A DNA stretch of 64,000 nt, taken from NCBI GenBank assembly GCA_021234155.1, contig JAJEKV010000014.1, positions 4,605,563-4,669,562 on the forward strand. The letters are read 5' to 3'. The notes below the pieces were generated by a model. The model was not told where the DNA came from, did no database searches, and worked only from the letters and a program-made list of their open reading frames with translations. The stretch's first letter is position 1; each line of letters begins with the position of its first letter. Source of the DNA: Isoetes taiwanensis (Eukaryota > Streptophyta > Lycopodiopsida > Isoetales > Isoetaceae). Both the position numbers and the translations under genes were made by a program. Positions 8,248-64,000 of this stretch are shown here, piece by piece.

Positions 8248-8545
8248 AGGTTGAGTTTTCTTCGTTTTACTGTCTATGTATCGGGCTATTCATCATTCTG
8301 TACTCCTTGGAGGATTGCATAACTGTGGGCTGCATTTATACATTGTACGCATTAACATGGTTTGTTTTTCTTCTTGCTGTTGTCGTTCTCATTGGCATGC
8401 CGGGGCGCCTTCTTAGACTCGTCATCGTGGAGGGCTTGACTTGTTGTTTTGGGGGCGACTTTTTTCCCCGTCTCGTGGCTGGCGTGCTTTTTTTTCCATT
8501 GTTTTTGTTCTCTAATGTACTTCCTTTTTTCAGGTCACTGAGCTG

Positions 8546-9606: not shown

Positions 9607-9690
9607 GCCGTTTTAGTTGTTTTTCACTATGTGTTGTATTTACTTTTGATCATTAATAAAGGATATTATTTTCTGACGGGTCTCTTTTTG

Positions 9691-11590: not shown

Positions 11591-11627
11591 CGGCGTCATG
11601 TAGCTCTTTATATTTTTCTTTGTCAAT

Positions 11628-12611
11628 TTGAATAACGTTAACATGGTTTTTCTGTTGTTTGTGGCAGCTACCTCTCGCTTGCTCACTCCCCAGGAGGTCC
11701 CCTTGTTCCTTTCGACTTTGCCTTTGGTCTTTTCCTCCCGCGCCCCATCTACTCTCACGTTCCGCCGCTTTGTTGTTTGGTGCCGTCTACATGCTGTTTC
11801 CTATCTCCCTGCTTCTCCCTTTGTCGTTGCGGCATTTTTCACTTCTCTTCATCATTCTCATATATCGCCCTCGTCCATTACTTCGGCCTCCGCAGCCATA
11901 TCCTTCTTCCATCAAATTTTCAACCTTCCCTCTCCCGCCATTTTACCTTTACCGTCTTTGGCTCGTCAGCCCACCTCTCGTCGGGCCCGCCCCTCTCGTA
12001 CCTTTCTTCCTCTCCTGCCTCAGCATGTACGCTCTATTGTTCTCCACTTCGCGCATCCCACGGCTCCTTTTCCCTCATTGGCCCGCGCTGCTCTCGTCAT
12101 GCTTTCTTTTGCCGTTTTTTTGTGCATCTTCGAGGCCCTTGCCCTCAATTGGCGTGATCTTTCTTTTTCATTGTCTCACGTTGATGTTCTTATTCGCCAT
12201 TCTAAACGAGACCAACTTGCCCGCGGTCATACGATTTCCTTAGCTCACTTGCCGTCGCTCGCATGCCCCGTCACTATCCTTCAGCGCCTAATTTCCACCG
12301 GTTCTTATCATCTCCTCGATCCTCCGTCCGGCGGCCCTCTTTTTCGTTCCTCTCCTTCCTCTCTACGTCCCTTATCCTATCCGACTGCCCGTGCGTGGTG
12401 GAGGGAGTGTCTTCTCGCTATCGGCTTGGATCCATCCCAATATGGTACACATCCTGCTCGTCGTGGCGGGGCCTCGGCAGCTGCGGCTCGGGGGGTTCCA
12501 CATGATGCTGCCCGCACTCACGGTCGCTAGCGCTCCTGTTCTTCTCATTCTCGATACGTGCTTCGCGACCCAACTCAACACTTGGAGGTTTCGCGGCGAC
12601 TGGGCTTATAG
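11628..12611 (+). pseudogene. DIRS-like tyrosine recombinase, inactivated
   Basis: A 300-codon frame has an N-terminal SAM-like half (RRFVVWC, SITSASAAISFFHQ) and a C-terminal catalytic half (EALALNWRDL, HVDVLIRHSKRDQ, then YGTHPARRGGASAAA). The H and R of the second catalytic box are at 12450-12464. The catalytic Tyr (SRYVLRD) is at 12555-12557 but lies beyond a TAG at 12528-12530 placed where the family has HGRW. The position of the first catalytic Arg appears to be Cys (TGC, 12123-12125). The frame finally closes at 12609-12611. Normally the enzyme integrates the circular cDNA without target-site duplication. A CAG with polypyrimidine tract precedes the domain at about 11650-11668. Confidence 0.8.
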
Positions 12612-42609: not shown

Positions 42610-44229
42610 ATACGGAGGGCCAAGGGATTGACATAAGTTGTGTAAAATAGACTGGCAGAGAACTATGAGGTTTGTGTGTATTGTTTAATTGCATGAAACT
42701 GGATTGAGATGACACGCAACAATGATCATATCCAGAATTACTTGATGTTGCAATTGTTACTGGAATCAGTCATATTCTCTCAATTTTTCTTAATAACCTT
42801 TTTCCCAAAGCTGATGGAGGTGGTGGCTTTACAACAAAAACTAGCAGTACATATACCCGTTTGATACCATCAATTATAGAAAGACTCATCCATATCTTTG
42901 AAAAGTTAATGTCTCCTCCTAGTTCTAAAACACCTATAGAGTATGGAGATGGTTTGTCTTATTTTTACTGCTCCAAATTTTTTTGGAAAGTGTCCGTTTT
43001 TCTAATTCATTTTTCATTTTGAGCATAACATCATAAGGACACTTCGAGATCGCAATGCGTTGATATTTGAGCTGTCAAATGCAAACCTAAGCTTTTATAA
43101 AGGATGAGAATAACATGTTCGACAGTTAGCAACAATCAACAATAAGGATTCGGATTTGGCTTTGATGTGATTCATCTTGCATGGGCGTTAAGTTAAATAT
43201 CATCAACGGTTAATTAAGTTAAGTTTATTCATCAATTCTCTACCATAACTTTATATTAGTTTAGGAATTCCATAAACACATATATATATAATAATATATA
43301 ATTATGAAAGTAATTAAAGTTCTATATAATCTAATTTATGTGAAAGGTTCAGTTTCAAACATTGGCAATATGGGTACATACGAACCAATAACTCAAAAAG
43401 GACCATTGAATATTCTCACCACTTCAGTTTCCAAAAGGCAACATTTATAGAAATATAAAGTTTCATTTGACAGAAAGACCTTAAAAGTTTTATCAAATTA
43501 TAGATTTAATAATTTCACAAATGTAAGCTAGATGAATGATGTAACATACTCTATATAACAATTTCCCCTCCCTCCCTCCCCCCTTTCCCTTCCCCCCCCC
43601 CTTCTCGGAGGAGGGCAGCTTAATAAGAACTAATATTTAACCTTTGGTAAATGTTTGTAGAAAAAATTTATAAACACTTTTAAGATAAAGACCTTACTTC
43701 TAATTTCAAGTAGATACAATGCAAGAGATTTGAGAGAGGACAATTTAAAAAAATATCTTTTAAGTGGATAATGTCCAAATTATAAATGCTAAATCTATAA
43801 ACAATAATTTGTAGATGAGACCAATATCTTTTTTAAAATAACTTGATCATATCACACAAAGATTTAAATAGTTTTTAAGTTAAGAAAATACAATAAATTT
43901 ACTATTTTTCTTACTACCATAAAGTTATTGTTTTCCTTACTAAATGAATGTCTACCTAATAATAATAATTTGATTTGATACGTTTTAACTTTGATATTCT
44001 TATGTTCATGCTTTCAATTTGTATGAGTCTTTTGCTTGAATTTTAATATGAAATTTGTCGTTTGATGCAGAAACTTTATTTGGAATTCAATGAAGCAACT
44101 TCAGGTCATCTCATGCTCATGCTTTGATTATACTGGTGCATGGTCTTAGTAAAGCCACTCTCTTCTACGTCTACCTTCAAGTTTATCATAAGCTTTCTTC
44201 TCTACTATCTTTCGATTGGCCATGGAAAA
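42610..44229. other. Intergenic, AT-rich
   Basis: 3' flank of the beta-glucosidase gene. A pyrimidine tract (CCCTCCCTCCCTCCCCCC and similar) spans about 43563-43605. No gene recognised. Confidence 0.45.
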
Positions 44230-45039
44230 CTTACTGAAATTAGAGTGCAAATTGGGTCCCTACCACCAATTCTACCGCAAATCGATTTCGGAAGAGTTGG
44301 AGAAGGAAGGAGCTACTTACTGCTGCATCCAGACTTGAAGAATGGAAGCCTTCGTAATAATGGCTCTAGCCAAGAGGTTATTAGTCTCTAGATAGTTTGT
44401 GCTTCATCTAACCCTTGTATGACTAGATGGATGGATAAATCCTCTTTTATGTACTGCTAAGATGATGATGGATGTTTTATTTATGATTATGTATTCTCTT
44501 TCTGTTCCTCCTGTGTGTTGGGGAGTAAGGGTGGGTAGAGACCTGAAAGCTTCCTAGTAGTGATATGTCTCTAGCTAGAACCCTTGAAACACGGTAAATG
44601 CGGCTTGTGCACCAGAGCCCACCTGGCTGTGCATGCTATGTTGTGATTCAGCACCAGATAACGGGTATAATGGTGAAACGGAGGTGGGATCTTGCCTAGC
44701 GTGGCTACGGGATTCCTATAGCATGCTAGGCTTATTTATGGTATATCGCTTATGTTATCTTGTCTTTGTGTTGTTGTTTATAGGATGATGGATGGACCAC
44801 CCTTCGTGGTGGTATATTTTTTTGTATATGATTACTAGGTGCTAATATATAAGTACGCTTCCACTGTATAGGATTTCCCTAGAGGACATGGAATGAATGA
44901 CACCTACGTGTCCTTCACCCGGACACTTGGACATCCGAAGTGGTCCGAGTTAGAAGGAGGACCTTTCCATGGTGATGCAATCACCACGGATGGAGTATTT
45001 ATACGATGGGAGCATCGTATAGATTTTGGGAGCGTCACA
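44230..45039 (+). mobile_element. 5'-truncated LTR, plus orientation, with PBS
   Basis: It is the reverse-oriented relative of the LTRs at 47530 and 56146, sharing the AAATCGATTT segment, GCACCAGATAACG, GGCTTGTGCACCAGAGCCCACCTGG-like text, ACCACCCTTCGTGGTGGTAT and GAAGGACACGTAGGTGTCATTC in opposite sense. It ends in GCGTCACA at 45039. Similarity to the first third of the full LTR is missing, so it is truncated or chimeric on the left. Confidence 0.75.
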
Positions 45040-45040
45040 C

Positions 45041-45052
45041 TGGTATCAGAGC
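45041..45052 (+). other. Primer-binding site (tRNA-iMet type)
   Basis: TGGTATCAGAGC follows the LTR end by one base. It matches the usual plant PBS complementary to the 3' end of initiator tRNA-Met. A leader related to those at 47209-47529 and 55830-56132 continues to about 45360. Confidence 0.85.
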
Positions 45053-45685
45053 ATGATTTTGGTAGACCAAATCATTGCACTGGCCATAGTCTAACCCGTT
45101 AGATTGGTTAGTTGTAGGGGACTTTTAATTTAAGCTAAACTATCCCAATTCCATAGCTAGTATGTGTGGTGGCCTAGTTATGGGAGAGTTAAGCTAGTTA
45201 GGGATTAAGGTGTGAGTCATTAGAATCAAGTATGTTAAGTTTTTGAAGAAAATGAGGTCTCTTGTTTCCACGGGCCATAACTTTTTCTAGGTAACTCGGA
45301 TGGAGGCGATTCTTGCATCAATGAGTCGAGACAATCTATTGACTAAGTCGGCATAAGTAGAAGGTGCCGAAATGACATCAAATGGGCACAAGAGCAAAAG
45401 GGGTGTGATTAGCAAAATTGTGCCTTAAAATTCAAATCTAAACATAACATTTTGCTATCACACCTCCATATATTTTTGCATATAAAAAGTCACGCGTATT
45501 TCTGTTGTGTAAAAAATTTTCATTAAAAAAAAATTAAAAAAAAAAAAAAACTGTTTCGTTTTGGTTCCGTCTGCCGCCTCATCCGTCCGCTATAGCCGCT
45601 GGAGAAAACCTCGCTTCCCATTTGTCCTTGGCCGCTGTCGCTGCCCCCGTACCAACGCCTCACTTCCGTACCTTCTCGTGTGCAA

Positions 45686-46778
45686 ATGAGTATGGCTCGT
45701 ACTCGAGGTTATGTTAGCTACTACAACCTCAGCATCCACCAAATCTTCGCCGAGCTTGGCGAGCAGCTCAACGATGACTCGGGGAAGATTGAGGTCCCCT
45801 TGACCGAGCTTGTTCAGCAGTTCGACATAGGGTGCCCTACCCTATCTTCCATCTGATGGAGCGCTTCCTGCTGTTGTTGAATGCCTTAGGGGAGCCTTAC
45901 ACATTGGTGGAACAACCTGATGATCAAGTTTTGAGGCTGGTCAAGTTCTACCCTCCTTCATGCATTGAAGTTGGCGAGGATCAAGCAATCAGGATAGAAG
46001 CCGAAAGAATTATGGAGCTAGCCTGAAGTGATGACACATGCGAGATGGAGAGGGGAGACCCAAAGGCCCGGGGTAGAGAGTATGTCTACCTGGGAGACGT
46101 GCAAGCTATAGGGTCAACGCTCGTCGCCTTGCCAAGATGGAAGAGCGTATGGCAGCTGTATACGCTGCGCAACAAGAAGCTAACCGGGCAGAGCAGCAAC
46201 GTCAAGCTGAGCAACACGTCAAAGAAAATGCTGAGCGAGAGACCCACCATTAGATCCAGCAAGACGAGGAGGAGAACACACAGCGGGCTCCAGACCAGAT
46301 TGAAACCCCCATTGTTAAACGGAGGTGGAAATTCATAGCACGTAAGTCATGGAGCGCCTACAAGGAGAAGCTCAAAAAGGTAGGGAATATTGGCAAGGCC
46401 ATGAACTCTGCCCATCGGCAGGACTGTGTGGACGCCGCTCAACCTCGCCCCGTGACAGAAGGCAAGACCCTTTTTAAGAAGTTGCATAGGTATAGGCACG
46501 GTACCGTGGCGTTGAGAGAGATACGGAAGTATCAGAAGACCACTAAACTTCTGTTACAGAAGCTTCCTTTCCAGTGCCTGGTCTGAGAGATAGCACAGGA
46601 GTATCGGACCGACCTTCAGTTCCAGATCTTTGCTATGCTCGCCCTCCAGGAGGCCGCCGAAGACTACCTGATTGCCCTTTTTAGGGATGCCAACCTCTGT
46701 GCTATCCATGCTAAGAGGATTACCATTATGCCAAAGGATTTGACCTTGCCAAGGAGGATTCGGGGAGACCACAAGTAG
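45686..46778 (+). pseudogene. LTR-element ORF carrying a histone H3 fold, broken
   Basis: ATG 45686 opens an unrecognised N-terminal region (SIHQIFAELGEQL, then after a frame change MERFLLLLNALGEP ... AERIMEL). A Glu/Gln/Ala-rich heptad stretch follows (from about 46130, stop TAG 46251-46253), then a basic segment. From 46476 to the TAG at 46776-46778 comes a histone H3 fold: [72 protein letters not shown]. Only one stop (TGA 46584-46586, where H3 has Arg) breaks the fold. The canonical H3 N-tail is absent and is replaced by the upstream text. Position after LTR, PBS and leader suggests it occupied the gag slot. Alternatives are a captured or retroposed H3/CENH3-like gene, or a virus-derived histone. 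Confidence 0.6.
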
Positions 46779-46958: not shown

Positions 46959-47208
46959 GTGCTTCATTTCTCTTTTGCTTCTCTTGCTCTCTCGCTCCTC
47001 CTCCACGTCCATCTTGCACAAATGGATGCTCCTAATCTCCTCCAATGTTACCAGGATGGTGACCATTGGGATCCGCAAGTCGCATTCGACCTACACCATC
47101 TTTACTTGCTCCAAGAGGTCGACTTGATCACTAATATGCAAGCCCACCTAGGCTATGCTGCCTTCCTCGAGTTTTACACTCAGGAGATGGTTCCTCGTAG
47201 TCTAGGAC
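46959..47208 (+). pseudogene. Unrecognised ORF, left part, cut by the gypsy element
   Basis: An open frame contains MDAPNLLQCYQDGDHWD, LHHLYLLQEVDLITN and LGYAAFLEFYTQEMV, and stops being independent sequence at about 47208, where the leader copy of the minus-strand element begins. Similar text seems to resume at 57668. Function unknown. Confidence 0.4.
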
Positions 47209-47529
47209 AAGGGGTGTCCTAGACTAATCAGGATGTTCCGGACGTGATGGAACAAAAATTGCCGCAACCCGAGTTTTCTAGAGAAAGTTATGGCCTCCGG
47301 AAGAAAGGGACTGCATTCTGTCAAAAACTCAACTTTACTTCATCTTAAAATTTTAAACTTTTTTCTTCTTAACTAGCTCAATCCTCATATACTTAGGCCA
47401 AAACTCATCCTACTTATGGATTTGGTGTAACTTTCCTACGTTGGAGGTCCCCTACTATCTAAACGGTCTAACGAGTTAGACATGGCCAGTGCTATGATCT
47501 GGTCTACCAAGATCATGCTCTGATACCTT
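47209..47529 (-). other. Extra PBS and leader copy outside the 3' LTR
   Basis: Read on the minus strand, LTR 47530-49022 is followed not by flanking DNA but by a PBS-like GGTATCAGAGC (47517-47527) and about 310 bp matching the leader at 55830-56145 (for example GGAGGCCATAACTTTCTCTA and the TAGGGGACCTCCAA region). It is therefore the start of a second, truncated internal region. Confidence 0.75.
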
Positions 47530-49022
47530 TGTGACGCTCTCCAAACCTATACGATGCTTCCATCATATAAATATGGTAAATCCCCTCTTCCATGGCGACT
47601 ACTCCACCATAGAAAGGCCCTCCGTCTGACTCGAACCACTTGTGATGGGTAAGTGTCCAGGTGAAGGACACGGAGGTGTCATTCGTCCCACGCCTTCTAT
47701 GGGAATCCTATATAGCGGAAGCGTACATACATGTTAGCACCTGGCAACAATACAAATAAATAAGTGGCCCATAATCATCAATATGAATACAACAGAATGC
47801 CACATAACAAAGGAAATGCATCATAAATAAGGGCTCTACCCCGGCTCAGACTTATGGGAATTAACTGACGGCCAAGGCCTCCGGACAACAACAGACAGAA
47901 TCATAACAATGGCGTTGGCTGGCATAGAACAATGGCTAAGGTAGTCCACTCCATCCACCCCTCCTGTGCACACTTTGCAGATAGGCTGGAACATGCTATG
48001 GCGTGATTGTAGCCTTCCGGAGACGCAATCCCATGGAATCACCCTATGGAACTACTCCGGGTTACTCCCCGGTCCGATGAGGCAGGTCGGAGAGGCGTCC
48101 TCTCCCCGAGTATGATGGATCCCTGGGTGTGCTAGAGAACACGTGCCACCTCAGTGACCCCCGCATTCGTACACGACTTACTTTCCTAAATCTAAAGGAC
48201 GGATCACCTGCCCGTTCGAGCCCAGGGCGCCCAATCATATTGGCTCGACTCCTGCAACCCAGAAAGTGTCAGACCCATACCCGGCCCTCTCCGTGACCGG
48301 CTATAAGCCTAGCACACTGTATGAGTCCCGTAGCCGCGCTAGGCGAGACCCCACCCCCGATTCACCATCATACTCGTTATCTGGTGCTGAATCACATCAT
48401 AGCATCCACAGCCAGGTGGGCTCTTGTGCACAGGCCGCATTTAATGGGATTTAAGGGGTTCTAGCTAGAGCATCACTAAATCTAGATAGCCTTTAGGTCT
48501 CTACCCCGCTTAATCCAATAGAACACAGGAGGAACAGAAAGAGAAAATAGAATCAGATACAAACATCCACCATCATCATCATAAGTAGATCATAGAAGAG
48601 AATCTAATCATCCATCTACTCAAACAAGGGTTAGAAGAATACAAGCTAAGCTAAACTAACTAGTATCATAGCTATCTCTCTGGTTCTCCATCCTTCTGGC
48701 TGGAACCAAGGTGAGCAGCAGCTCCTCCTACCAATTTCCCCCAAATCGATTTGGGGCAAATTGGGGTCCCGAGCTGGCAGGTCTACTTTGCCCAATCAAT
48801 TTGGGGCAGGTGGCAACTCTAGATTAGTTATCCCTAATTAATTTAGGTCTTTTTAATATTAGGTCAAGCCCTAAATTCGAATTAGGGTTTGGGGTTAGGT
48901 TTCCACCTTAATAATTAATGATGTGCATTAATTATTCATAATTAATGATGCGCATTAATTATTCATAGTGACATGTCATGTATTTATACCCAAAAGGGCG
49001 TATAAATATGTGGAACGTCACA
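47530..49022 (-). repeat. 3' LTR of the minus-strand gypsy element
   Basis: 1493 bp. By eye roughly 95 per cent identical to the LTR at 56146-57667, with indels including loss of about 20 bp that contains ACCACCACGAAGG. Ends are TGTGACG and CGTCACA on the plus strand, which are inverted. Confidence 0.85.
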
Positions 49023-52000
49023 TTCTCCCCACCTTGAAAGTGATGCTGTCCTCAGCATCAAGACTGTTCTTGCTCTGGGCCAACACATGACATGTTGGAA
49101 GCAAGTCTCCCCACCTTAAAGAGGTAATGCGAAATTATAAGTCACACAAAAGTTGTCATGTTCAAGGTGATCAAGTTTGAAATGACGTGTAATGTGCAAT
49201 TTATAACTCGGCGAAAGTTGAACTGTAATGGAAGAATGTTATGTGGAATAAAAAAAATACATATATAGAGCGTATACTATCATCGTGTAAGACCATAGTC
49301 CTGTCAAAAGTCGACAGTCAAGATATAATAGATAAGCAAGCACACTATTGGTCTGTGGTGGAACGTAGCCTATAGGGCCTAGCGGTGGAAATAGAAAACA
49401 CATATGACAACAAAGACATGGGCCGATAATGTTCCCATTATAGCTGTAAATGAAGGTGTCCTATTATGATTATATGCCCATCCCCATTCCTAGGGTGCAT
49501 CTAGCCCGATCCCTCTGCATGAAGGCTGGCCTCCATGATCCCTGCCGGATCTAAGACTTAGGAGATATCGATTAGTGATTGTAGCACATGCTGCTTTCCC
49601 TCGAAACCGGAGTTGATGGCGTCGTTGTTGGCGCAGTTAGAAATCATTGTTTATTCACACACATGTAGCTGATTATATATTATACATAGGCGTAGACATA
49701 AACAACCTCTATTTCTTCTTTTATTATGATACCTATTTATAATTCTCTCATTTTTACTACAACTGATTCTAATCATATTAACTTCTGTCTATATGTCTAG
49801 TATACTCTCCCTTCACTTTACAATTTGTTTTATTACAGTCTACCCTAATTTAATTTTATATATAAATTTTGTTTTCCTATTTTGTTATAGTTTTAACAAT
49901 TCATATATTGCTACCCTCAGTGTTTTACATGCCCACCACATTGGTACTTATCCTTTAATACAATTATGTATTGCATTATATTTTTTCATTTTTAGATATA
50001 TAGTTTGACATTAATTACCCACACACGTTAATCATTTATTATCCATAACCTTTCTAAAACCATAATGTAACTCTCGTTATTCCTTCTATAGTTGTATAAC
50101 ACATACATAATTATCTCATTATATTTTATTTGACTATGTGTTTAAATACTTTTCTCGTTTTGATTATCTTTAAGTGTTTCCTATTCTATTCTATCTTAAC
50201 CATAGGTTACATTCACGTCGATACACATTTGAATTCATTATCTATATTATTCTTATTTTCGTATATTTATCACACATACAGTCACTTTTATATTTACACG
50301 GCACCGGTACATCTCACAGATACATTCGACGCGGCACTGCTAAGTTGATACCGCCCGGGTCGCTATCCAGCAGTGCTATGGCCATGCAATCCTCTTGTAT
50401 CACAGAAGGCCAGTTGTAACAATGGTGTCCATGGCGGAAGCATCGAAAAGATGTCTGATCCTTCCTGAGGCTGTTATATAGTGATGGGTGAGCAGGTACG
50501 GAGTGGTAAGGTATCCTTATTTTGGATCGAGAGTCGAGAGAATTGGTATGACGTAGAAGGAGACTGGATATAACACTATATATCTAAGGAAGAAGTGGTA
50601 TATGATTATCTGCCATAGACCACGTTAGAGAGGTAGTATACTAAGGTGGAAACTGCATTATACGTACCCAGCTCATGAAAGGGAGATCACTTTAGAAGTG
50701 TAGGTTTCGACAATGGTGGTGAAGGTAAGAATGTTGACCTAATAGTGTTTTATTGCCATTTGAATTGTAGTATGATTCACGGAAAGGTAGAGAATAATGG
50801 CACATGAGGATGCGGATCCATAAATTACGGATTATAAAATTATGCATACATAGCATTTCGTAAGGAGATTGATGTTCTGGAGGTGTGCAATAAAGATGCA
50901 AGTGTATCCATGAGTAAGATGACCACGTAGCCACGTGGGTACACTTATCTTGCTAGCAGAAGGTGCAACCGTCTAAAAGCTACAAGGTATATTGGAGCTT
51001 TGCTAAAGCTAGACTATGAAGAAAAGTTGAACTTCAGCTAATGATACATTAGGAAGGCAAGTAATAGAAAATTTGAAGGGACGCTTTGAAGAGTCTAAAG
51101 TGTGGAGTATATACAAGGTAGGTGCCCAATGAACATCTTACCAAGGAGAATGTGCTCTGGACTTGGTATCGTGTGAGTATCCCGAGGAGTAGCTCCACGT
51201 TGGTATATGCGTAACAGGATCATTTAAGGGCATAACAAGAAAAGAAAGGGTGTATAATAGAACTTTTAGTGCACCGTACAAATGTATATGGAAATAATGA
51301 AGATAAGAGTTCCTAGAGTAGATGTTAAGTAGGTTCACTAGGAACTTAGGGTGGCACCTCTCACTGTGGTATTTGTGATTAGAACTCGAGCATGAAGTCG
51401 AACTAGGTTCTTTTTCTATGTATGAATGAGAGACTATGGAAAGTGTGGTGTTAAAACCACAACGGGTATAGTACAATATAACATGAAGTTGAATTATGGT
51501 GGATAATATCATCCACTAGATAGTTATACAGGTGCGGATTATAATTATAGGCTACGACAAAAGTATACACAGAAGGACACATGTATTAAACATGTGGGTA
51601 GTGAGGATTGTACAACACGGTAGGCAAGTATGAGCACCGCTATGTGGTTATGTGCAAGAATGGCATGTGATTCTAGACGTAGGATTGGTTCACAGATGTT
51701 ACCATATCAGATAATAACAAGGTAGCGGTCACGAATGTTGGAAAGTAGTATCAAATACTGTATTAGTAATGATATTAAGGATGTCGACTGCGACATTCAG
51801 ATTTATGTCGTACAGGAAAATAGTAGAATATTCGTGCAAAACGAAGGGGATATTACATGATAAAGTTAGAAATAAGCGTAATGGTACGCTCGTACCTGGA
51901 GGTATCTAATGAGATATGAAGTACTAGAGATAAGCATTGAAGTTATCTCGATTGTTTGGGATTGACTGACGTTGGTAAGTACAACATACTAAGGGACATG

Positions 52001-55000
52001 AAAGGTGTCCAAGTTAGGGAAATAGCTAGAGTAAGTCTAGCATATATGGCGACATTACATTCAAAAATATCCCAATGATAGTTGAAACGAAATGGAAATA
52101 ACAGATAATAGGAGTTTAGCTAGTCAAAGGTTCTAGAGGCCAATGAATTGATTCAGCGTTATAAGCTGAGAGTATCAAGTGGGTGTGGAAATAGTAGGAT
52201 GGATGAAATATCCCTTCCAATAATGGAAGAAGATTAAGATGGTGGCTTTGCCAATTATATAAGTAGGGATAACTGACAAGAGGGCAATACATACCAGTTC
52301 CAAGTCCCAATAAGGAGCAAGACGAGGTGTATAGCAGAGATGGGATGAGATTATATGAATGAGTAGTCTATATATTCTGAGAATGTCCTTCCTCTCGGGG
52401 GAACAATGCTAAATCCCGAGGTAGGGGAATGAGGATCCCTGGTTCGGAAGTACACATTTTCGATAGATTATGATTTTAAGAGCCTTAAGACGATAATGAA
52501 TTGGATAACGCTATGGCGGTTGCTAACGAAGGTTCGGTCATAGGGGTTTTCTATTATGAGAGGGAGAGGGTTCAATGCCTCCATCTCATTATGAGGGAGC
52601 CAAAGAGGACAACATTTGAACCCGATCAAAAGTTGAAGGTGACATGATAGCTTAAGAAAATAGGTTAATTGTGACAAAGCATGGTTGATATTGGGGACAC
52701 AAAGGATATTTAGCTGAAGGAGCCTTTAGAAAAGCTCCTCATCTGGAGTAGACCTTCGGAATTATGGTATAATCCCGTGGGAGGATCATAGTTTATGTAC
52801 ACGACTGGAGTACCATAAGGCACTAAAGGAATGGTTGAAGTAGCTGAGGATCCTATCAAAATATAGGCAGCATATAGAATTCCAACATAGAGTTGGCCAC
52901 TGCCCTGTTGGGAAGTCGGTGGCTTAGCCACATTATAAAGGTACATAGGCAATAGGTCTTGTTTCAAGGAGCTACCAAGCTTATGCTTTAGCTAAGTTAG
53001 AGAGGGCTCTAGTATTGTGGGATGAGAATATATGTTTATCACGTACATACTATGGACCATATGATAAACATCTTAGAGAGGTAATCTATGCAGTGATACG
53101 GGGAAAGAAGGTTGATTGTACCCCAAACTTACCAATGAAGGGTCTGGAGTATGTCTGGAATGTGCAAACAACAGTCAATCTGTTGCATGTTAAGGAAGGA
53201 GGCTGTAGTTGTCACCTGAAATAATTGTCAACGGCCAATAGAACAAGGCTTAAGATGATGGGGTTGAATAGTACGATAGTACAATTCTTGGCTGGATGAC
53301 GAATATGTATCTGGTGTAAATCAAATGTGGTTGTGGAAACATGAAAGGATAGATATCCAACATGATGCCTGCTTGGATAAGGAAGAGTCAAAGTCAATGG
53401 GTTATGCAGAGTTATAATTTTAAACGTCTAGGGCTAGAACATGAATGCAAGCCGGGGTGGCAGGATATTAACTATCCGGAGAATACCAGACGTGGGGGTT
53501 TAGGTAGAATTAGAAAATGCATGATGAGCCTCGGTAACTTACAAATTTCACGAAAGCTCACTCCCTACATCAGAACACGACTATGGCTTATGGAGGTATG
53601 CCAAGTCATTTGTAATGCCGGCATAGCAGCATGACAGCAACACAGAGGGACATAATGTCTAATAGTTCTAAGGTGGATAACGGCGGTAAACGATAACCCC
53701 CAATGATATGCGGGTTAAAAAGATACATGGAAATTTAAAGACATAAACGCAACCTTTAAGGTAGAGACTATTGTATCATACGATATATAATAGTGGGTTA
53801 ACAGCCAACAAGAGGGTTAAAAGGTATCTGAAGGAGTAAATGGGTCGGTAACCCTACAGAATGAAAATAAAGCAGTTCACTTTTGAAAATAGGGCATGGG
53901 TGTGGTGGATTTGCGGATGCCAAGTTACGTGTGAGGGCGCAATAATGGCATGACATCGGCATAGAAGAACGTAAGAATTAACAATTCAAAGATCTACGAG
54001 GATGCTAAAGCATAGGGTTCCAAGAAGATGCGGGGTAAAAGTCATAGAGAAAATTGAGCGCTTAACTGTTCCCTTGGAACCTAGTGAAGCATACAACATA
54101 TAGCGGTAATTTAGAAGATAACAAGAGGGTGATAGAAGATATGAAATGTCAGATCACTTTGTGATCATACGACCAAAGAAATTATAGATGTACAGGTATT
54201 GCGCAGCATTGGGAGTAAAAAAAATAACACGTTTCAAGGCCAGGGTGAAGGAGATCGATGATAGTCCCGAGAAGGTAGCAAAAAAGAAGACAAAATTAGT
54301 GGACTATTATTCATTACGTGGGGCTACCGGGCAGAAAGGCAGCAGGGGACTTTGAAAAACCGTTGAAGACTTAAATAGGGGCCGTAGGGATAAAAGGATT
54401 TCAATTTCTGGGATAACATGGCGAACAATAATTTTACAAGGACCCTAAGAGTAGGTGTCGCTGTAGAAGGGTGCCGGATTGGTACTAACATTTGGGACTA
54501 TTGTTCTAATTCCCTAGGATGGGTAGATTATTCATAGAACTCAGTGATCCAGTGACGCTAAAGTAATGGTTGGAAGGAGTTTGCCCCAATCAAATTTAGG
54601 TATTCTTGAAGGTGTTGATGAGCCAAAAATGGTGGCATACCTTCAAGTGTTAGGGTAGAAAAACTTGAAAAGAGGTTTAGCCATCGCAAGTTGACAGGCA
54701 TATGATGCAAGTATATACTTACTGGGATATAGGCGGTGAAGAGTGGTACAAACTGGTACCAAGGTTTATGCTCTTGATAGATTCGAGTGAGATGTTGATA
54801 TAGCTGTGGGAGTTCGAACTCAAGCAATTACGATGTGTTACCGAGTATGTGTCGTGACATAAAGAAAAGTAGTGAAGGGTGGTGGTACAATTTACAAACC
54901 CAAGGCCTAGAGGGTTGCTGCATGGCAGTGTCTGGTTGGTTGGGTCAAGAGAAGTATATTGTCTGAGAAGAAAGACAGTCAAGGCTTTGAGACTAAAAGA

Positions 55001-55474
55001 AACAGTATCAGGTATGGTTGGTTCATAATGCTACTTAGTTCCTGACATGTGAAGTCGAATGAAATAGCTTTTAAAGCAGATGAAGGTACTAGAAATTAAA
55101 CGAAGGCAGGGTTGAAAGAATTTTGCTACCAAGGCATCGACTAGAGAAAAATTCAGTACTGGAAAATTCCGTACTGCTAGGGTATTGCTGCGAGCGAACA
55201 TTTATCATAGGGGAGAGCGGATTAGGATCCACGTAGAAGATTCTATCTCGCCCGGAAGAGTCACCGTCCATCTCGCATCGAGAAAGTGCGATATTATGGT
55301 TGGGGAACCCATTGGCTGAGGCCAATAATGTCGCTTGAGGTGAGCGCACCTTGGTTGCACAAGTCTGGTGGAGTTGTTGCCACCACAACGTGGGTTCACG
55401 GAAGACGGTCTTCTAATTTAAATAGAAAATAGAGCTACTATAAATAAGACGAGAACTATTGCATTCCTACGTAA

Positions 55475-55711
55475 AGGAGCTTAGCCCATTGGTAAAAGGG
55501 TTGGCTTGGGCATAGGAGGTTAGGGGTTCAATCCCACTATATGCCTCTTTCTCTTAAAAAGAGTTGTGGTCTAGAAATAGAACATCAAACATATATAAGA
55601 AATATATAAAACATAAATATTCAATAAAAAAAGTTGGCATGTTGGTAAGGACTTGAAGTTAGAATTAAGAGGTCATGGGTTTAAAACATGGGCAAAAAAA
55701 AAAAAAAAAAA
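55475..55711 (+). mobile_element. tRNA-derived SINE-like insertion(s)
   Basis: 55475-55549 looks like a degenerate tRNA: box A-like TTAGCCCATTGGTAAA and box B-like GGGTTCAATCCC about 35 nt apart. A second, similar segment at 55632-55692 has box A-like TTGGCATGTTGGTAA and a weak box B (CATGGGTTTAAAA), followed by A18 at about 55694-55711. The arrangement fits one dimeric or two tandem SINEs inserted in the gypsy interior. Confidence 0.5.
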
Positions 55712-56145
55712 GTCAACGCTCGGTGCGCACTTTGCATTTTGAGTGCTTAAAATTGAAAAATAAAGTCCTATTTTGCAAAGTGCCGGTTTAGGGTTTTGGG
55801 CTACTTTTTTTATGCTGGGGACTTGGACAAAGGGTGTTCTAGACTAATTAGGATGTTCTGGAGCGATGGAATAAAAATGGCTGAAATCCGAGTTTCCTAG
55901 AGAAAGTGTGGCCTCCGGAAGAAAGGGACTGCATTCTGTCGAAAACTCAACATAACTTCATCTAAAATTTAAAATTTTTTCTTCTTAACTAGCTCAATCC
56001 TCGTATACTTAGGCCAAAACTCATCCTACTTATAGATTTGGTGTAACTTTCCTACATTGGAGGTCCCCTACTATCTAAACGGTCTAACGAGTTAGACATG
56101 GCCAGTGCTATGATCTGGTCTACCAAGATCATGCTCTGATATCAT

Positions 56146-57667
56146 TGTGATGCTCTCTGAACTTATATGATGCTCCCATCGTATAAATACGGGAAATCCC
56201 CTCTTCCATGGCGACTACTCCACCATAGAAAGGCCCTCCGTCTGACTCGGACCACTTGTGATGGGCAAATGTCCATGTGAAGGACACGGTGGTGTCATTT
56301 GTCCCACGCCTTCTATGGGAATCCTATATACCGGAAGCGTACATACATGTTAGCACCTGGCAACAATACAAATAAATAATATACCACCACGAAGGGTGGC
56401 CCATCATCATCAATACGAATACAACAGAATACCACATAACAAAGGAAATGCATCATAAATAAGGGCTCTACCCCGGCTCAGACTCATGGGAATCAACTGA
56501 CGGCCAAGGCCTCCGAACAACAACAGACAGAATCATAACAATGGCGTTGGCTGGCATAGAACAATGGCTAGGGTAGTCCACTCCATCCACCCCTCCTGTG
56601 CACACTTTGCAGATAAGGCTGGAACATGCTATGGCGTGATTGTAGCCTTCCGGAGACGCAATCCTATGGAACTACTCCGGGTTACATCTCCCAGGTCCGA
56701 TGAGGCAGGTCGGAGAGGCGTCCCCTTCCCGAGTATGACAAATCCCTGGGTGTGCTAGAGAACACGTGCCACCTCAGTGACCCCCCCATTCGTACCCGAC
56801 TTACTTCCCTAAATCTAAAGGCCGGCTCACCTGCCCATTCGAGCCCAGGGCGCCCAATCATATTGGCTCGACTCCTGCGACCCAAGAAGTGTCAGACCCA
56901 TACCCAGCCCTCTCTGTGACCAGCTATAAGCCTAGCACACTGTAGGAGTCCCGTAGCCACGCTAGGCGGGACCCCACCCCCGATTCACCATCATACTCGT
57001 TATCTGGTGCTGAATCACATGATAGCATCCACAGCCAGGTGGGCTCTTGTGCACAGGCCGCATTTAATGGGATTTAAGGGGTCCTAGCTAGGAGCATCAC
57101 TAAATCTAGATAGCCTTTAGGTCTCTACCCCCCTTAATCCAATAGAAGACAGGAGGAACAGAAAGAGAAAACAGAATCAGATACAAACATCCATCATCAT
57201 TATCATAAGTAGATCATAGAATAGAATCTAATCGTCCATCTGCTTAAACAAGGGTTAGAAGAATACAAGCTACGCTAAACTAACTGGTCTCATAGCTATC
57301 TCTCTGGTTCTCCATCCTTCTGGCTGGAACCAAGGTGAGCAGCAGCTCCTCCTCCACCAATTTCCCCCAAATCGATTTGGGGCAAATTGGGGTGGAAGCC
57401 CCAATTTGGGTGTCCCGAGCTGGCAGGTCTACCTTGCCCAATCAATTTGGGCCAGGTGGCAGCTCTAGATTAGTTATCCCTAATTAATTTAGGTCTTTTT
57501 AATATTAGGTTAAGCCCTAAATTCGAATTAGGGTTTAGGGTTAGGTTTCCACCTTAATAATTAATGATGTGCATTAATTATTCATAATTAATGATGCGCA
57601 TTAATTTTCATAGTAACATGTCATGTATTTATACCCAAAAGGGCATATAAATACGTGGAATGTCACA
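56146..57667 (-). repeat. 5' LTR of the minus-strand gypsy element
   Basis: 1522 bp, plus-strand ends TGTGATGC and TGTCACA. The PBS lies immediately at its left, confirming that it is the 5' LTR of an element read right to left. Confidence 0.85.
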
Positions 57668-59315
57668 TATTTAGAGAGGGCGATTGTGTGTGATATGTCG
57701 GGGAGTGACTCCCATGCTGCCAACGTCCTGAAAGGCAAACTCCGATGGGCGAAGAACCCACCTGTTGTGATACATGAAGGCCAAAAATACTTCGACGTAA
57801 AGTTTGATTTGACCATTCTTATGGACCAATACGTCGACGATAAAGCTTTGCCTGCAGAGAAAGCAAAACCGTCAGCTATACTAGATGAGGAAGATGGTGA
57901 GGAGGTCAGAGAGAATGCCTTTGTTCGTTGGAAGCAGTTAGCTGAGCAAATGCCCTTACATCGAGATCAGGACGCTCGACTTACAGGACTGGATACTCTC
58001 CCGGTTTCCACCACCAAGGTCAAGAATACCTCCTATTAGAGGATATCATGTGGACATACCACATTATTGCTGACCTCAAGTTCAAGAAGAAGACACACAA
58101 TCTATACGAGCTCTCCGTATTGCATGGACGATTTCATCAACTTCACCTCAGCTGAGCTCCCTTTTGAGGTACAACAATTGCTTCAATTTCACCAGGAGAC
58201 CATTGAGCCAGTTGATGCCCTCTTGCACTCGCGACATCTTATATTGCAAGAGGCCCCATCATAGCCACCTGGTGAAGCTTTTGTTGCCATGGGATACCTT
58301 GTCCCAAATATTAATATGGTGGATATCCCCTCATAGTCAGATGAGGAAGGGGAAGATCTTTGTGACACCTAAGATCATTTGATGGAAGAGAAGCAAGAAG
58401 CTAAGGAAGAAGAGGTGACCATGGACCTCGACAAAGAGGTGGCTATCTCTATTATTCCTGAGGTTAGTGCCTTGGGTACTCGTTTCTTCCTTTCAGATTT
58501 TAAGCAAGGATATGTCTTTTTTGTGGCACGGGATCTAGCTCTGAAGGCCGAGGCATCATGATGGGCACTTTGTGCTCTATCCACCTTAGCTGGGCATAAG
58601 AAGCTCCAGCCTCGCATGCCCACATATGTGCTCATGCGTCGGGATTTTGCTTTGACCGCTCTAGGGTAGGATATTGCAGTATGGATGAGTATGAAGCTTC
58701 TTGTGGCTGCTCCGTTGGCCACGAAATTTCCCCTAGAGATTGCCTCCGCAGTCTCACGATTAGCTCCAGTGTCACATTACTTCGACACCACCAGCCGCCA
58801 CCGCTTCCTATGCAGATGGATGAGGATGCAAGATCTAGCTCCTGAATATATTCTTGTTATAGATGTATGGCCTTAGTCCATTAGGAAATATGTACCAACA
58901 AATTTGGCACTTGTATGCCATCCTTTAATATAACTTTTTATTATTTTATGTCTTACCCTCCCTCTCTAACGACTGCCTTGCATGCGAATTATAAGTTAAT
59001 GGTTGTATATCTTGCTTATCTCTACTCTTTTTTTATATTTTAGACAGTGCACGTTCCTCTCCATGGACGACCCTCGTACAACCCGGTCGCTTAACTCCAG
59101 AGCAAGAGCTCATACTTATGAAGCATCAACTTACTGAGCTCTAAGCCTATGCACTTCAAAACAACCCGCCAGTGATACTGCAGGAGTACGATTCTAAGAT
59201 TCCTGTTGTAGCCAATCACCAGCCACCACCACTAGCTGCACCAGTACCTGCTCCAGCTACATCCACATGCTCAAAGCATACACGGTGCAGTTCATCATCT
59301 GATGCTAGTTCTAAT
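57668..59315 (+). pseudogene. Unrecognised broken ORF, right part
   Basis: Immediately right of the gypsy LTR an open frame runs YLERAIVCDMSGSDSHAAN ... LTILMDQYVDD ... LTGLDTLPVSTT (to 58039). Then, through stops and shifts, come INFTSAELPFEVQQLLQFH, an acidic EEKQEAKEEE segment, FFLSDFKQGYVFFVARDLAL, LLVAAPLATKFPLEIASA and LTPEQELILMKHQLTEL with a Pro/Ala tail. Many stops replace Gln or Trp codons. It may be the continuation of 46959-47208, split by the gypsy insertion. The family is not recognised; a virus- or retroelement-derived structural protein is one possibility. Confidence 0.4.
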
Positions 59316-59665
59316 TGGTTAGACTATAAATATGCTGACTAAGTATAATGTGCTGAAACATCAATGGTTCAGCACTTAGCACACAGGTGCTGAGAAGGTG
59401 CTGAAATGTACAGAAAGCAGCACTTTTTTAGCACTAAGCACCGACCCTAAATCAGTGCCATAATTAATGGATGGTGGTTAAACGGTAGACTACTATTCTT
59501 GTCTCACCAGTTGTATATATATTCATTGTACGTTATGTACTATGCAATGCTCAGAAGTAGAGATTGTATTTCCTATTGCTTTTCTCAATAAAGTTGTTGT
59601 CCTTCTATTCTATCTCTTGAGTTGATCTTGTGGGGTTTGTGCTGGTTTTGGCACTAGTTCTATCA
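59316..59665 (+). repeat. 5' LTR of the copia element
   Basis: About 350 bp. Shares TATAAATATGCTGACTAAG, AATGTGCTGAAACATCAATG and GTTCAGCACTTAGCACACA with the right LTR. Ends in CTATCA just before the PBS. The exact first base is uncertain by about 15 nt because the two LTR starts differ. Confidence 0.8.
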
Positions 59666-59929
59666 TGGTATCAGACGCTTTCTTGAGGGAAGAATAGAGC
59701 AATCTATTGAAGAACATCCAAATTAGATTGGCCATCATTTCTAGAAGTTCTTTGGCTGAAATTTAATGGTGGAAACTCTCATTTGCAGCATTGGAGAAGA
59801 TTCTTGTCTTTTGGCCTGGAGGAAGTGTTTGGAGAGAGATTCGGATTTTCCAGCAAGTTTTGGTGTGAGATTTGAGTTTTTTCCAAGACCTTTTTGGCGA
59901 CAAAATTCAAGATTCAACTTTTCTAATGG

Positions 59930-60535
59930 GTGCTTTGTTTGGTGACGAATTTATTTTCTCGACCATTTTTTTGGCTGCTGAAAACAGGATTCATTGATCC
60001 ATTCAAGTTCTCACAGAATACAAAGCTCACTAATAATAATTACCATGCTTGGAAGAAGTTCATGGTGAATTATTTGATATTTAGTGACATAGAAGTGGTG
60101 TTTGATGAAGACTTTATCAGCACCAAGTCAGTAGATGCTGGCAAGATAAATCAGAAAGCTTGTGCTCTTGTCAAAAAGTTGGCTGAAGAGACAATTGGTC
60201 ATGAAATCAACCATTTTACTGAGTTTATGGAGATGTGGTCTCATTTGGAGGTGTCTCTTGATAGAAAGAGTAAATGCTGATCCAGAACAAAATGCGACAT
60301 GCCCAATCAGGTGATTTCAAATCTGTCACAACATACCTTACTCAGATGAAACAATGGCGTTTGGAAGAAATCCAAGGAGTTCAAGTGCTGGAATTGTAGT
60401 GAAAAGGGTCACTACAGCTCAAATTGTAAGAAGGAGAAGAAAAGTTCAAAGGGAGAGACGAGTGCTGTTGTGTGTGCCACTTTTGATGCTGAATACCTGA
60501 ATCTTGCAGCAGTGGCCAACACCTTACAGAAGGAC
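59930..60535 (+). pseudogene. copia gag remnant
   Basis: KLTNNNYHAWKKFMVNYLIF and the following EVVFDEDF match the N-terminal capsid region of copia gag. A stop at about 60280 and an apparent deletion lead to CWNCSEKGHYSSNC (C-x2-C-x4-H-x4-C, about 60387-60430), the nucleic-acid-binding zinc knuckle. Most of the capsid C-terminal region is missing. Confidence 0.75.
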
Positions 60536-63500
60536 TAGATTTTGGACTCAGGAGCCAAGGTTCATCTTATCGAAGATTCAGATGTGTATTCTGAACTTGA
60601 ACCTCGATTTGAAGATGATGTAAAGATGGGTGATGGATATTCTCTTCCTATCATAGGAAAGAGCATTGTAGCTTTTCAATTGCATGGATGTGATCTAGTT
60701 AGTAAGGTGAAGAAGGTCATGTTTGCTCCTGGATTACAGTCTAATATCATGTCTGCTGCTGAATTTGATAAGGCAGGCCATCACATTGTTCTCGAAAATG
60801 GCAAAGCCTGTCTGCTGGGTAGGGATCCACTTGAAGGAATTGATTTGAAAAGTCTACAATTCATGGCACAGTGGATGCTGCAGAATGGCTTGTATGTCCT
60901 TGATGGTTCAGTTCATAAGACTGAACATGATCTTGTATGTGATGATTTGACTGCTGAGCATCTGTGGCATGCTCATTTTGGTCATGTTGGAGGCCCTGCT
61001 GTACATGCTTTGTACAAGAACAAGATGGTTACAGGTATTCCCTCTCTGAAATGTGTCACGCTTGAGTGTGCTGCATGCCATCTCGGAAAGCAACCTCAAT
61101 AGCCTTTTCCACAGCAGGCTATTCATCGAGCAACTCAACCTCTTGAGCTGCTGCATTCTGGTTTGTGCAATATGCTTGATGTTTCACTAGGTAGAAAGAG
61201 GTATTTCTTGACCTTGATTGCTGATTTTAGTAATGTATACGTTGCACTGCAAATCTGAGGTGCTTGGCAAGTTCAAGGCCTTCAAAGCAGAAGTCGAAAA
61301 GCAGACAGGGTTAGTGATAAGAAAGATGAGAAGTGAAAATGGAGGTGAATATGTTTCTAATTGAGTTTCTCATGGAAGAAGGTATTGAAAGACAGTTAAT
61401 CGTTGCTTATGCTCGTCCACAAAACGGTGTAGCTGAAAGGAGGAACAGGTCTTTGCTTGATTTGGCAAAATCTATGATGAACCACAAGCAACTGCCTGAA
61501 TCTTTTTAGGGAGAGGCAGTAGTAACAGGAGCAGGTCGCCTACTAAGGCAGTCCAGAATATGACTCCCTATGAAGCATTTTGGAGAATGAAACCAGATGT
61601 GTCTCATTTAAAGGTGTTTGGATGCTTAACTTATGCTTCCATACCTGCTGAGAAGCTGAAAACGTATGGGAAGTTGCATGACAAGGCTGTCAAAGCCATC
61701 TTCATTTGGTATCCAGAAAATCAGAAAGGTTACAAGTTGTATGATCCTTCTAACAAACAGGTTATTGGCAGGTCAGTTCGTTGAAGATGTTGTGTATGAT
61801 GGTATATCTTCCAGTGATTCTCCTGCAGTTCACAATGACAGCAACTTGGATGTTGGAGATCTGATAGCAGCTGCTAGTAGACCTTTCTTTCCCTCTCTAG
61901 TGGCTTCTCTAGTGAACTCACATTTGCCTGAAGTAGTGGCATGGATGATCCCAATCCCACTCGCCCTATGGTCCATAAGTAGGTTGGTTCCTTTCAGGGG
62001 GGGTCCAACACACATGAAGGTACTGTAGCACCTGTTACAGCACCTATTGTAGCACCTGCTATACCTCTTTTTGTTGAACCTAGGAGATCAGCATATCTCA
62101 AGGAGAAATAAATTGTTGCAGAACCGGTTGCAGCACCTGTTGTACCTGTTGTTGAACCTAGGAGATCAGTACATCTGATGGAGAAACAGGAGAAGTCTAA
62201 TGGATCATGTAATCTTGCCTTAATGGCAAAGGTCTAGAATCATGTTGATCCACACACATTTCATGAAGCAGCTAGTGATCCGCAGTGGCAGGATGCAATG
62301 GAAGAAGAATACTCTCAATTGCTGAAGCAAGGCACATGGGAATTAGTTGAACGTTCAGCTGATAAGCAAGTTATTGGCTATAAATGGGTGTTTAAAACCA
62401 AATTTCATGCTGATGGGATAATGTTAAAGCACAAAGCTAGACTTGTAGCCAAGGGTTTTGTATAGAAAAAAGGCTTAGATTATGATGAAGTCTTTGCTTC
62501 CATAGCCAGAATGTCCACTATTAGATCATTTATAGCTCTTGCTACAATGAAAGGTTAGTTAATGTTCCAAATGGACATTAAGTCTACTTTTTTGAATGGT
62601 GATTTGGAGGAAGAGGTCTATATGACTCAACCACCAAGATTTGTTGCTCAAGGGAAGGAGCAGTTGGTTTATCATTTGAAAAAAAGCATTTATGGCTTGA
62701 AGCAGGCTCCAAGATGTTGGCATGCGAAAATCAATGCTTTCTTTCTTGACCAGAGGTTCAGAAGAAGTGCAACAGACCTCAATCTTTATTACAAATCACA
62801 TGAGCGCCGAATGTGCATTGTAGTTTTGTATGTTGATGATTTTATTATCACAGGAGATGCTTATGTGTTGATTTCTACATTGGAGTTGAAGTTATCTTCG
62901 TCCTTCGAGATGACTGACCTTGGCCTTATGCATTACTGTTTAGGTGTAGAAGTGTGGTAGCAGTCAGATGGCATCTATCTTTCTCAGCAGAAATATATCA
63001 AAGAAATGTTACAGCAGTATCGTATGCATGATTGCAAGGCTGTTGCAAGTCCTTTTGATCCAGGCACAAGGCTTGAGCTTGATTTTGATGGTGAGGAGTG
63101 TGATCCCATATTCTATCAAAGCTTGGTAGGGGCGTTGATATATCTCACAATCACTGGACCTGATATCTCATTTGCTGTGGGAGCGCTAAGCAGATTTATG
63201 AGCAATCCCAGCGAGTCGCACTGGAAGGCTGCTAAAAGACTGCTGGCATATCTGAAGGGAACTTCACAGGAAGGTCTCTTTTATCAGAGGTCCTCTGATT
63301 TCCAGCTGAAGATCATGATGATGATCATGATGCAGATCATGCTAACTGTCATGATAGCAGGAGGTCCACAACAGAGATGGTCACGTTCATAGGGCCTAAC
63401 GTGCTGACATGGTTGTCCAAAAGACAGTCTACAGTGCCAATCAGCACCACGGAGGCAGAATTCAAAGCACTCAGTGTTGGGATGCAGGAATTGTTGTGGC

Positions 63501-63814
63501 TTAAACATTTGTGGGCAGATCTGCAGGTACCTTCATCCTCGGCTATTATATTATGCGACAACACAAGTACCATCCATCTTGCCAAGGATGCTAAGTACCA
63601 CCCAAAGACAAAACACCTTGACACCCACTTGTGTTTTGTCCGTGAGCAGATCCAAATGGAATCTTCTCAACTTGTTCATTGCTCCTCACAGGATCAGTTT
63701 GCTGATAGCTTTACCAAACCATTAGTTGGATCTAAGTTTGTCAATGTGAAGGAGAGCTTGGGCATGAAGAAATTGCAGCTGAAGGGAGAGAAGGGTTACC
63801 TTAGTTTCAGTTGA
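60536..63814 (+). pseudogene. copia pol: protease, integrase, RT, RNase H, broken
   Basis: Protease ILDSGAKVHLIED at 60539-60580, directly after a TAG (60536). GAG-pre-integrase LWHAHFGHVGG near 60963 and C-x2-C of ECAACHLGK. Integrase core pieces RSENGGEYVS (about 61333) and ARPQNGVAERRNR (about 61413). MTPYEAFWRMKPD ... VFGCLTYASIP at 61560. RT QMDIKSTFLNGDL, SIYGLKQAPRCW and catalytic LYVDDFIITG (62830). RNase H SKRQSTVPISTTEAEF, LCDNTS, KTKHLDTHLCFVRE to 63814. Between IN and RT a VEPRRS(A/V)(Y/H)L unit is duplicated (62078, 62152). Stops lie at 60536, 61100, 61507, 62109, 62235, 62463, 62556 and 62958. Confidence 0.9.
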
Positions 63815-63850
63815 TTTTCTTCTGCTTAGTCAGCAACATTTACAGGAGAG

Positions 63851-64000
63851 TGTGGGAATATAAATATGCTGACTAAGCATAATGTGCTGAAACATCAATG
63901 GTTCAGCAGACTAAGCATAATGTGCTGAAACATCAATGGTTCAGCACTTAGCACACAAGTGCTGAGAAGATGCGGAAATGTACAGAAGGCAGTAGCACTT
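63851..64000 (+). repeat. 3' LTR of the copia element (partial)
   Basis: Starts after the polypurine tract as TGTGGGAATATAAATATGC. A 38-bp block (GACTAAGCATAATGTGCTGA ... GGTTCAGCA) is tandemly duplicated here but single in the 5' LTR. Runs off the window. Confidence 0.85.

Follow-up and report, generated by a model that had tools for sequence, protein, structure and literature searches.

Does the histone H3 fold that closes a broken reading frame shortly after an LTR in the genome of Isoetes taiwanensis belong to a retrotransposon and, if so, what would a retrotransposon do with a histone? The question is raised by a stretch of 64,000 nucleotides (the window), in which an earlier note had placed an H3 fold in the gag position of an LTR element and had proposed an element-encoded nucleosome-like protein, a captured H3 or CENH3-like gene, or a virus-derived histone. 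The copy in the window has decayed; it comes from a large family of Ty3/Gypsy chromoviruses of this species.

The H3-bearing element in the window

The Pfam Histone profile matches the two halves of an H3 core on either side of a TGA (46254-46586, E 7.8e-9; 46587-46778, E 7.4e-19; both above the Pfam cut-off), and a canonical H3 used as tblastn query is 70% identical over 46449-46769, with no second H3 detected in the window by the same query at E up to 10. The agreement of the two methods confirms that the fold at 46476..46775 on the plus strand is real; it extends from about H39 to near the C-terminus, is split by the in-frame TGA at 46584-46586 and is followed by the ORF1 stop, TAG 46776-46778. 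The EAAEDYL variant previously pointed out does occur in the window but is not typical of the family, as open copies of the element have EAAEAYL (12 of 13) or EATEAYL (one of 13), and the window H3 owes its divergence in part to its subfamily and in part to the decay of this single copy.

Upstream of the fold, the LTR end at 45039 and the PBS at 45041 are present as described. The 5' LTR (44212..45039, plus strand), delimited by blastn against the LTRs of relatives and from the sequence, ends with GAGCGTCACA; it is truncated on its 5' side, the LTR start being TGTGACRTTCC in relatives, and blastn indicates an internal deletion of about 450 bases relative to them. A single base separates the LTR from the PBS TGGTATCAGAGC (45041..45052, plus strand), a motif that we take to be a PBS for the initiator-Met tRNA, and a leader follows (45053..45685, plus strand; sequence and blastn). 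The plus-strand text from 45686 is indeed broken by stops and frame changes, as seen from the ORF list and from tblastn. A remnant of the N-terminal domain of ORF1 (N-domain) was located at 45686..46110 (plus strand) using the ORF list, blastn and tblastn with 13 open ORF1 proteins, whose hits fall in 45662-46110; it begins with an ATG at 45686 (MSMARTRG...), changes frame near 45825 and meets a TGA at 46024-46026, and about 160 bases that relatives have are absent at ca. 46110 according to blastn. The remnant of the ORF1 coil and basic linker occupies 46125..46475 (plus strand), tblastn hits with the ORF1 of open copies starting between 46125 and 46359 and running to 46769 or 46775.

Downstream of the H3 core, the first part of a second reading frame, ORF2, is recognised at 47022..47201 (plus strand; tblastn with the ORF2 of the relative L041, E 7e-13) and its continuation at 57668..58315 (plus strand), in two pieces corresponding to 57668-57868 and 58118-58315 (tblastn, E 2e-11 and 7e-6). 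The interval in between, 47202..57667, is occupied by a composite LTR element on the minus strand, defined by its repeats, its PBS-like sites and the resumption of ORF2 at 57668; because the ORF2 match breaks off at 47201 and picks up at 57668, this element arrived after the H3 element. It consists of two LTRs (ca. 47530-49023 and ca. 56146-57667) plus a partial leader, with an approximate left edge and with PBS-like sites, each having one mismatch, at 47528 and 56144 of the minus strand. Its interior contains no H3 by tblastn of the window and no match to the ORF1, H3 and pol pieces of L041, and it is perhaps a non-autonomous relative of the H3 element. The two LTRs are 93-97% alike in pieces, and LTR or leader stretches of 82-165 bases resemble those of the H3 element (74-89%). 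No pol of the H3 element was found within the window, where the only LTR of its own is the truncated 5' LTR. Two further observations concern other parts of the window: a Copia-like element, judged by eye, lies at about 59334-63992 (direct repeats spaced by ca. 4.5 kb; open frames resembling integrase/RT at 60539-63814), and the plus strand of 8001-12000 is pyrimidine-rich, with an AT skew of -0.32 to -0.45 and a GC skew of -0.19 to -0.25.

Copies and anatomy of the element across the genome

When 46254-46778 was searched as DNA against the genome, whose 1110 pieces total 1,658,258,908 bases, the best 40 of 1217 candidates were scored and yielded 41 matches. These lie at 40 places, one of which is the window itself, and the matches outside the window are 69-87% identical. 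Nineteen decayed copies were tabulated in 10-kb stretches (L009 to L028 without L019, which is the stretch neighbouring L018). Upstream of H3, 12 of the 19 have an LTR and 16 the N-domain, while ORF2 was found downstream in 13, gag-like stretches in six, RT in five, RNase H in four (the match in L015 may come from another element) and integrase in three, counts in which a missing part is no proof of absence since many copies are interrupted by insertions or cut off where a 10-kb stretch ends. The arrangement of LTR, leader, ORF and H3, whose recurrence had been named beforehand as support for an element-encoded domain, thus repeats over the genome (40 matching places scored; 19 copies tabulated). 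One of these copies, L026, which is an internally deleted member of the window's group, has H3 between two LTRs that are 88.9% alike over 1166 columns, together with a one-mismatch PBS and a PPT, and is the only copy tested for a target-site duplication: its LTR pair is flanked on both sides by the 5 bases GGTGG. Many copies, a constant order and this duplication around an H3-containing LTR pair establish that the fold belongs to the element.

Two local arrangements were also noted. In L018, two direct H3-bearing stretches (3034-4182 and 8840-10000) are 95.2% alike and 5.8 kb apart, corresponding to a duplication of part of the element. In L017, a 918-codon open frame (6567-9320) that resembles a non-LTR reverse transcriptase, a putative assignment, adjoins the copy of the H3 element.

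Less decayed copies were sought with the Pfam histone profile, for which the best 150 of 8705 candidates in the genome were scored. Fifteen of these rows were treated as full-length host H3, three on the basis of their profile span and 12 after being read; the latter are 12 distinct coding sequences whose proteins are 97.8-98.5% identical to a plant H3. The other rows, about 135, are not full-length host H3, their match starting at profile positions 4-25 and commonly at 20; in 130 of them the match contains no stop, and for 28 the open frame measures 440-494 codons. The 135 are referred to below as element-H3 rows, a few of which may be host H3-like genes (e.g. one in a 139-codon frame); 13 of the 135, chosen by histone score and a long open frame, were read, and the rest have linkage support only or none. 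All 13 consist of one stop-to-stop ORF of 464-494 codons with the H3 core at its end. They fall into three subfamilies, A (five copies), B (seven) and C (one), between which ORF1 is 40-46% identical by BLAST, and it is subfamily C that the window copy most resembles in its N-domain (52%).

Linkage was examined genome-wide with two other parts of the element, using the best 150 rows of each search, in which an unpaired row is uninformative. With the RT of L041 as query (best 150 of 28725 candidates scored), a same-strand RT was found 2.6-5.9 kb downstream of 17 of the 135 element-H3 rows, 13 of them at 4.7-5.3 kb, for none upstream and one on the other strand (0.05 expected from the best-150 lists), and for four of the 17 linked RTs the frame exceeds 900 codons. 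With an N-domain query from subfamily A (best 150 of 2881 candidates scored), 47 of the 150 matches are in frames of 440 codons or more, and for 50 of the 150 the H3 list contains a row no more than 3 kb away, which in every case is on the same strand and downstream, with none on the other strand (0.02 expected from the best-150 lists).

The element could be followed to its end in L041 and the neighbouring L054, where the order is 5' LTR, PBS, ORF1-H3, ORF2, gag-like and zinc-knuckle-like stretches, RT, RNase H, integrase, chromodomain, PPT and 3' LTR. The LTRs of this copy are 93.1% alike (31 mismatches and 31 gap positions over 899 columns), the 5' LTR being covered by its last 884 bases. 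ORF1-H3 corresponds to 1379-2836 of L041 and ORF2, for which Pfam gave no family with an E of 0.1 or less, to 3001-4096, after the H3 ORF and before the gag-like stretch. The latter is recognised by matches below the Pfam cut-off (Retrotrans_gag, E 0.0021; zf-CCHC, E 0.031), and frame changes break the gag-pol of L041, in which RNase H (E 5e-19) and Integrase_H2C2 (E 4e-15) were detected with Pfam and RT was assigned by similarity to L009 and L010. The chromodomain at the end of pol was seen in one copy (L054; Pfam Chromo, E 3.6e-9), and L009, the sole copy tested for a protease, has a protease followed by RT (RVP_2, E 9e-11; RT, E 1e-33), so that the order protease-RT-RNase H-integrase is pieced together from relatives and is never found complete in one copy. 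The window copy has an exact PBS 12-mer at its LTR end, as do L011, L012, L022, L027 and L041, and the PPT, aaggaggggagaa or GGGGGAGAA, precedes the TGTGAC of the 3' LTR. With these features, seen in relatives, the element is a Ty3/Gypsy LTR retrotransposon of the chromovirus type. The placement of the fold in gag had to be given up, since the H3 ORF has its own stop and is followed in relatives by ORF2 and then by a separate, weak gag-like stretch and pol, ca. 3-6.5 kb downstream of H3: H3 is the end of an extra 5' ORF, and a gag with an H3 fold was rejected on these grounds.

The ORF1 protein and selection on its H3 core

In open copies, ORF1 encodes a new N-domain, a coil and a basic, NLS-like linker that adjoins the H3 core. 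No Pfam relative of the N-domain was counted in six members scanned (best E 0.045, in one member) and no PDB relative was found by profile search with six sequences (best E 4); PDB H3.3 matches residues 363-476 of L050 with an E of 4e-53. The H3 core of the 13 open copies is 84-90% identical to host H3 at the protein level with saturated silent sites, which points to an old capture that has been kept since. In the alignment (H3 numbering), R40, R49, R63, R69, R72, R83, R116 and T118, which we take to be DNA contacts of H3, are invariant in all 13, as are C110, H113, D123 and L126, presumably H3:H3' contacts, and K56, K79, K115 and K122.

Upstream of H39, no recognisable H3 tail was detected in 16 of 17 sequences (13 open and four decayed), their alignments being no better than shuffles (z -0.6 to 1.6), and the context of K4, K9 and K27 is not conserved in the 17. 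The exception is L009, whose linker aligns to the H3 tail with a z of 3.1, contains a TARKS stretch and was aligned by BLAST to the whole tail; an RKS motif is also found 51-61 residues before H39 in six of the 17 sequences. The linker, instead of replacing the H3 tail, may thus be a degenerate form of it. A general homology of the linker to the tail was dropped because 16 of the 17 linkers remain at shuffle level despite the BLAST alignment of L009. At the other end of the protein, the start of ORF1, MSMARTRG in the window (45686-45709) and MANTKS in subfamily C (L050, near 258), recalls the MARTK of H3, a likeness of few residues that may be due to chance.

The dN/dS ratio of the H3 core is 0.013 in subfamily B (21 pairs) and 0.047 in subfamily A (10 pairs), the corresponding values for B and A being 0.078 and 0.080 in the N-domain and 0.12 and 0.13 in the basic linker. 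Between the three subfamilies, pS is saturated (0.83-0.88) and pN amounts to 0.075-0.107 in H3 versus 0.43 in the N-domain. Ratios of 0.01-0.05 within two subfamilies and a low pN at saturated silent sites indicate strong purifying selection on H3. Since the open copies had been picked in part by histone score, the effect of such biased picking was simulated with 8705 copies decaying neutrally, from which the best seven were taken: the simulated pN is 0.22 at a pS of 0.35, versus 0.007 at 0.354 observed in B, so that biased picking does not reproduce the conservation of H3. From its sequence, ORF1 is thus read as encoding a tail-swapped H3 core that belongs to the element and was kept under purifying selection as the element multiplied.

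An H3 tree, for which the 14 of 21 decayed records having one match of at least 85 residues were kept and the other seven dropped, separates the element H3s from host H3 and from two CENH3/CENP-A rows with a fork support of 89/85, and groups the window-like decayed copies as a fourth group (14 rows, 99/98). The fusion of N-domain and H3 occurs in subfamilies A, B and C and in the window's group; as it is common to at least four subfamilies, a single acquisition of H3 ahead of their split is the most likely history, a view based more on the shared fusion than on the 89/85 support of the tree. A divergent or CENH3-like H3, at which the earlier note had hinted, does not fit these copies. A longer loop 1 and a fast-evolving core are what we take to be the hallmarks of CENH3; the element H3s have no loop 1 insertion (at KTDLRFQ), a core that is 84-90% identical to host H3 with a dN/dS of 0.01-0.05, and a position apart from the two CENH3 rows, which fall on the host-H3 side (89/85). 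The same identity to host H3 makes derivation from a giant-virus histone unlikely.

Possible roles and comparison with known systems

As a whole, the best explanation is that of a retrotransposon family with an H3 of its own whose ORF1 protein acts in host chromatin, to which we assign a probability of roughly 0.7. The conservation of the core demonstrates a function and not which one, because H3 is heavily constrained in hosts too. Since the H3:H3' and DNA-contacting residues are kept, host H4 and host histone chaperones are the most likely partners of the ORF1 protein: the core would pair with them, giving nucleosomes or H3-H4 complexes, and would put on chromatin a foreign N-terminus in which the K4/K9/K27 context is not conserved. 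The likeliest target would be the element's own DNA, new or newly integrated copies receiving nucleosomes that the host could not methylate at H3K9 or H3K27. Such shielding of nucleosomes on element DNA from H3K9/H3K27 methylation is plausible, at somewhat less than even odds. The broader proposal, that a retrotransposon lineage makes its own chromatin from a tail-swapped H3 and host H4 on element DNA, which the host could not mark for silencing, is offered more tentatively.

Next after protection ranks a tether, in which the H3 core would dock the pre-integration complex, or ORF1 itself, on host chromatin via H4 and chaperones, in addition to the integrase chromodomain. A chromodomain is indeed present in the copy that could be followed to its end, and the conserved core residues and the NLS-like linker adjoining H3 would suit such a role; the chromodomain alone, however, already provides targeting, and the presence of ORF1 in an integration complex is a supposition about a protein whose N-domain has no relative in Pfam or PDB sequences, which leaves the tether possible but on the doubtful side. 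It is rather unlikely that ORF1-H3 and host H4 serve to compact cDNA (or RNA) in particles or in the cytoplasm as a nucleocapsid helper: ORF1 comes first in the element, has a basic linker and a coil and keeps the DNA-contact arginines, but gag-like and CCHC-like stretches, both weak matches, exist separately downstream, and conservation of the H3:H3' residues exceeds the needs of non-specific binding. Improbable too is a decoy that would draw H4 or chaperones away from host H3 and so loosen silencing of host chromatin in general, which agrees with a core whose residues are kept and a tail whose marks are not, but would require large amounts of protein. That H3 is a passenger, captured from the host by chance and copied without use, has a precedent in the capture and amplification of H3 by fungal transposons (described in parts of PMC6710886) but becomes very improbable given that in two subfamilies dN/dS is only 0.01-0.05 despite high silent divergence, that pN is low between the three subfamilies although pS is saturated, and that simulated biased picking fails to give the observed conservation. 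Finally, a host-H3 retropseudogene beside an unrelated LTR (a single insertion with its own boundaries and poly-A), an outcome envisaged in the earlier note and compatible with the broken window copy taken by itself, has a negligible probability, H3 being present in many copies in a fixed order, fused to the N-domain at many places and, in L026, enclosed by LTRs with a target-site duplication.

Silencing of plant transposons acts largely via marks on the H3 tail. For the preferred reading, action of ORF1 in host chromatin, an abundant LTR element with a conserved H3 core and without the tail would represent either a direct bypass of this tail-based defence or a new hold on chromatin. A natural and long-tested H3 with another N-terminus also makes it possible to test which functions depend on the H3 tail, and the family suggests that part of the host chromatin machinery can travel with a genomic parasite as one of the parasite's genes.

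No histone in an LTR element was found among the papers listed by searches of the open-licence PubMed Central literature, and the word "histone" is absent from the main text of the genome papers of I. taiwanensis (PMC8566536) and I. sinensis (PMC10541799). The nearest counterparts are hAT DNA transposons with a transduplicated H3 in the fungi Pseudocercospora fijiensis and relatives and Pyrenophora tritici-repentis; according to sections of the paper describing them (PMC6710886), P. tritici-repentis has tens of H3 copies with little RIP, many of them potentially active, and P. fijiensis hundreds of RIP-inactivated copies, 94% of which resemble the third exon only. In both the fungal and the Isoetes case a transposon has captured and amplified a host H3, but the carrier here is a plant LTR retrotransposon and not a fungal DNA transposon, and the H3 core ends a long ORF, is fused to another domain, has no recognisable tail and is under purifying selection. 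A second paper reportedly deals with fungal hAT transposons carrying H3 as well.

Among plant elements, a Ty3/Gypsy family of the orchid Phalaenopsis has acquired an ORF for a 2-ODD/AlkB-type m6A RNA demethylase; the main-text parts of that study (PMC9289625) report 15 non-canonical domains across 121 angiosperm genomes, with no histone among those named, and extra ORFs that mostly have no known conserved domain. Like the orchid family, the H3 family stably keeps an extra ORF with a cellular-type domain, which differs in nature (H3 versus demethylase). Plant LTR elements with extra ORFs in sense orientation between the 5' LTR and gag, among them eORF-5'F, are described in portions of PMC6317226 and PMC7264820; ORF1 has the same orientation and position but contains a clear known domain. 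What appears to be new here is therefore the histone domain in an extra ORF of a chromovirus, the extra ORFs themselves being already known. The encoded core resembles core H3 and H3 variants in its 84-90% identity to host H3 and in its DNA and tetramer residues, and differs from them in lying at the end of a long ORF, with a tail that is unrecognisable in 16 of 17 sequences and a K4/K9/K27 context that is not conserved. Finally, the element shares with chromoviruses the order RT-RNase H-integrase and a C-terminal chromodomain (L041/L054), and is set apart from the others in that, in addition to a chromodomain, which reads histone marks, it encodes a histone core, whereby histones join the host genes taken over by LTR elements.
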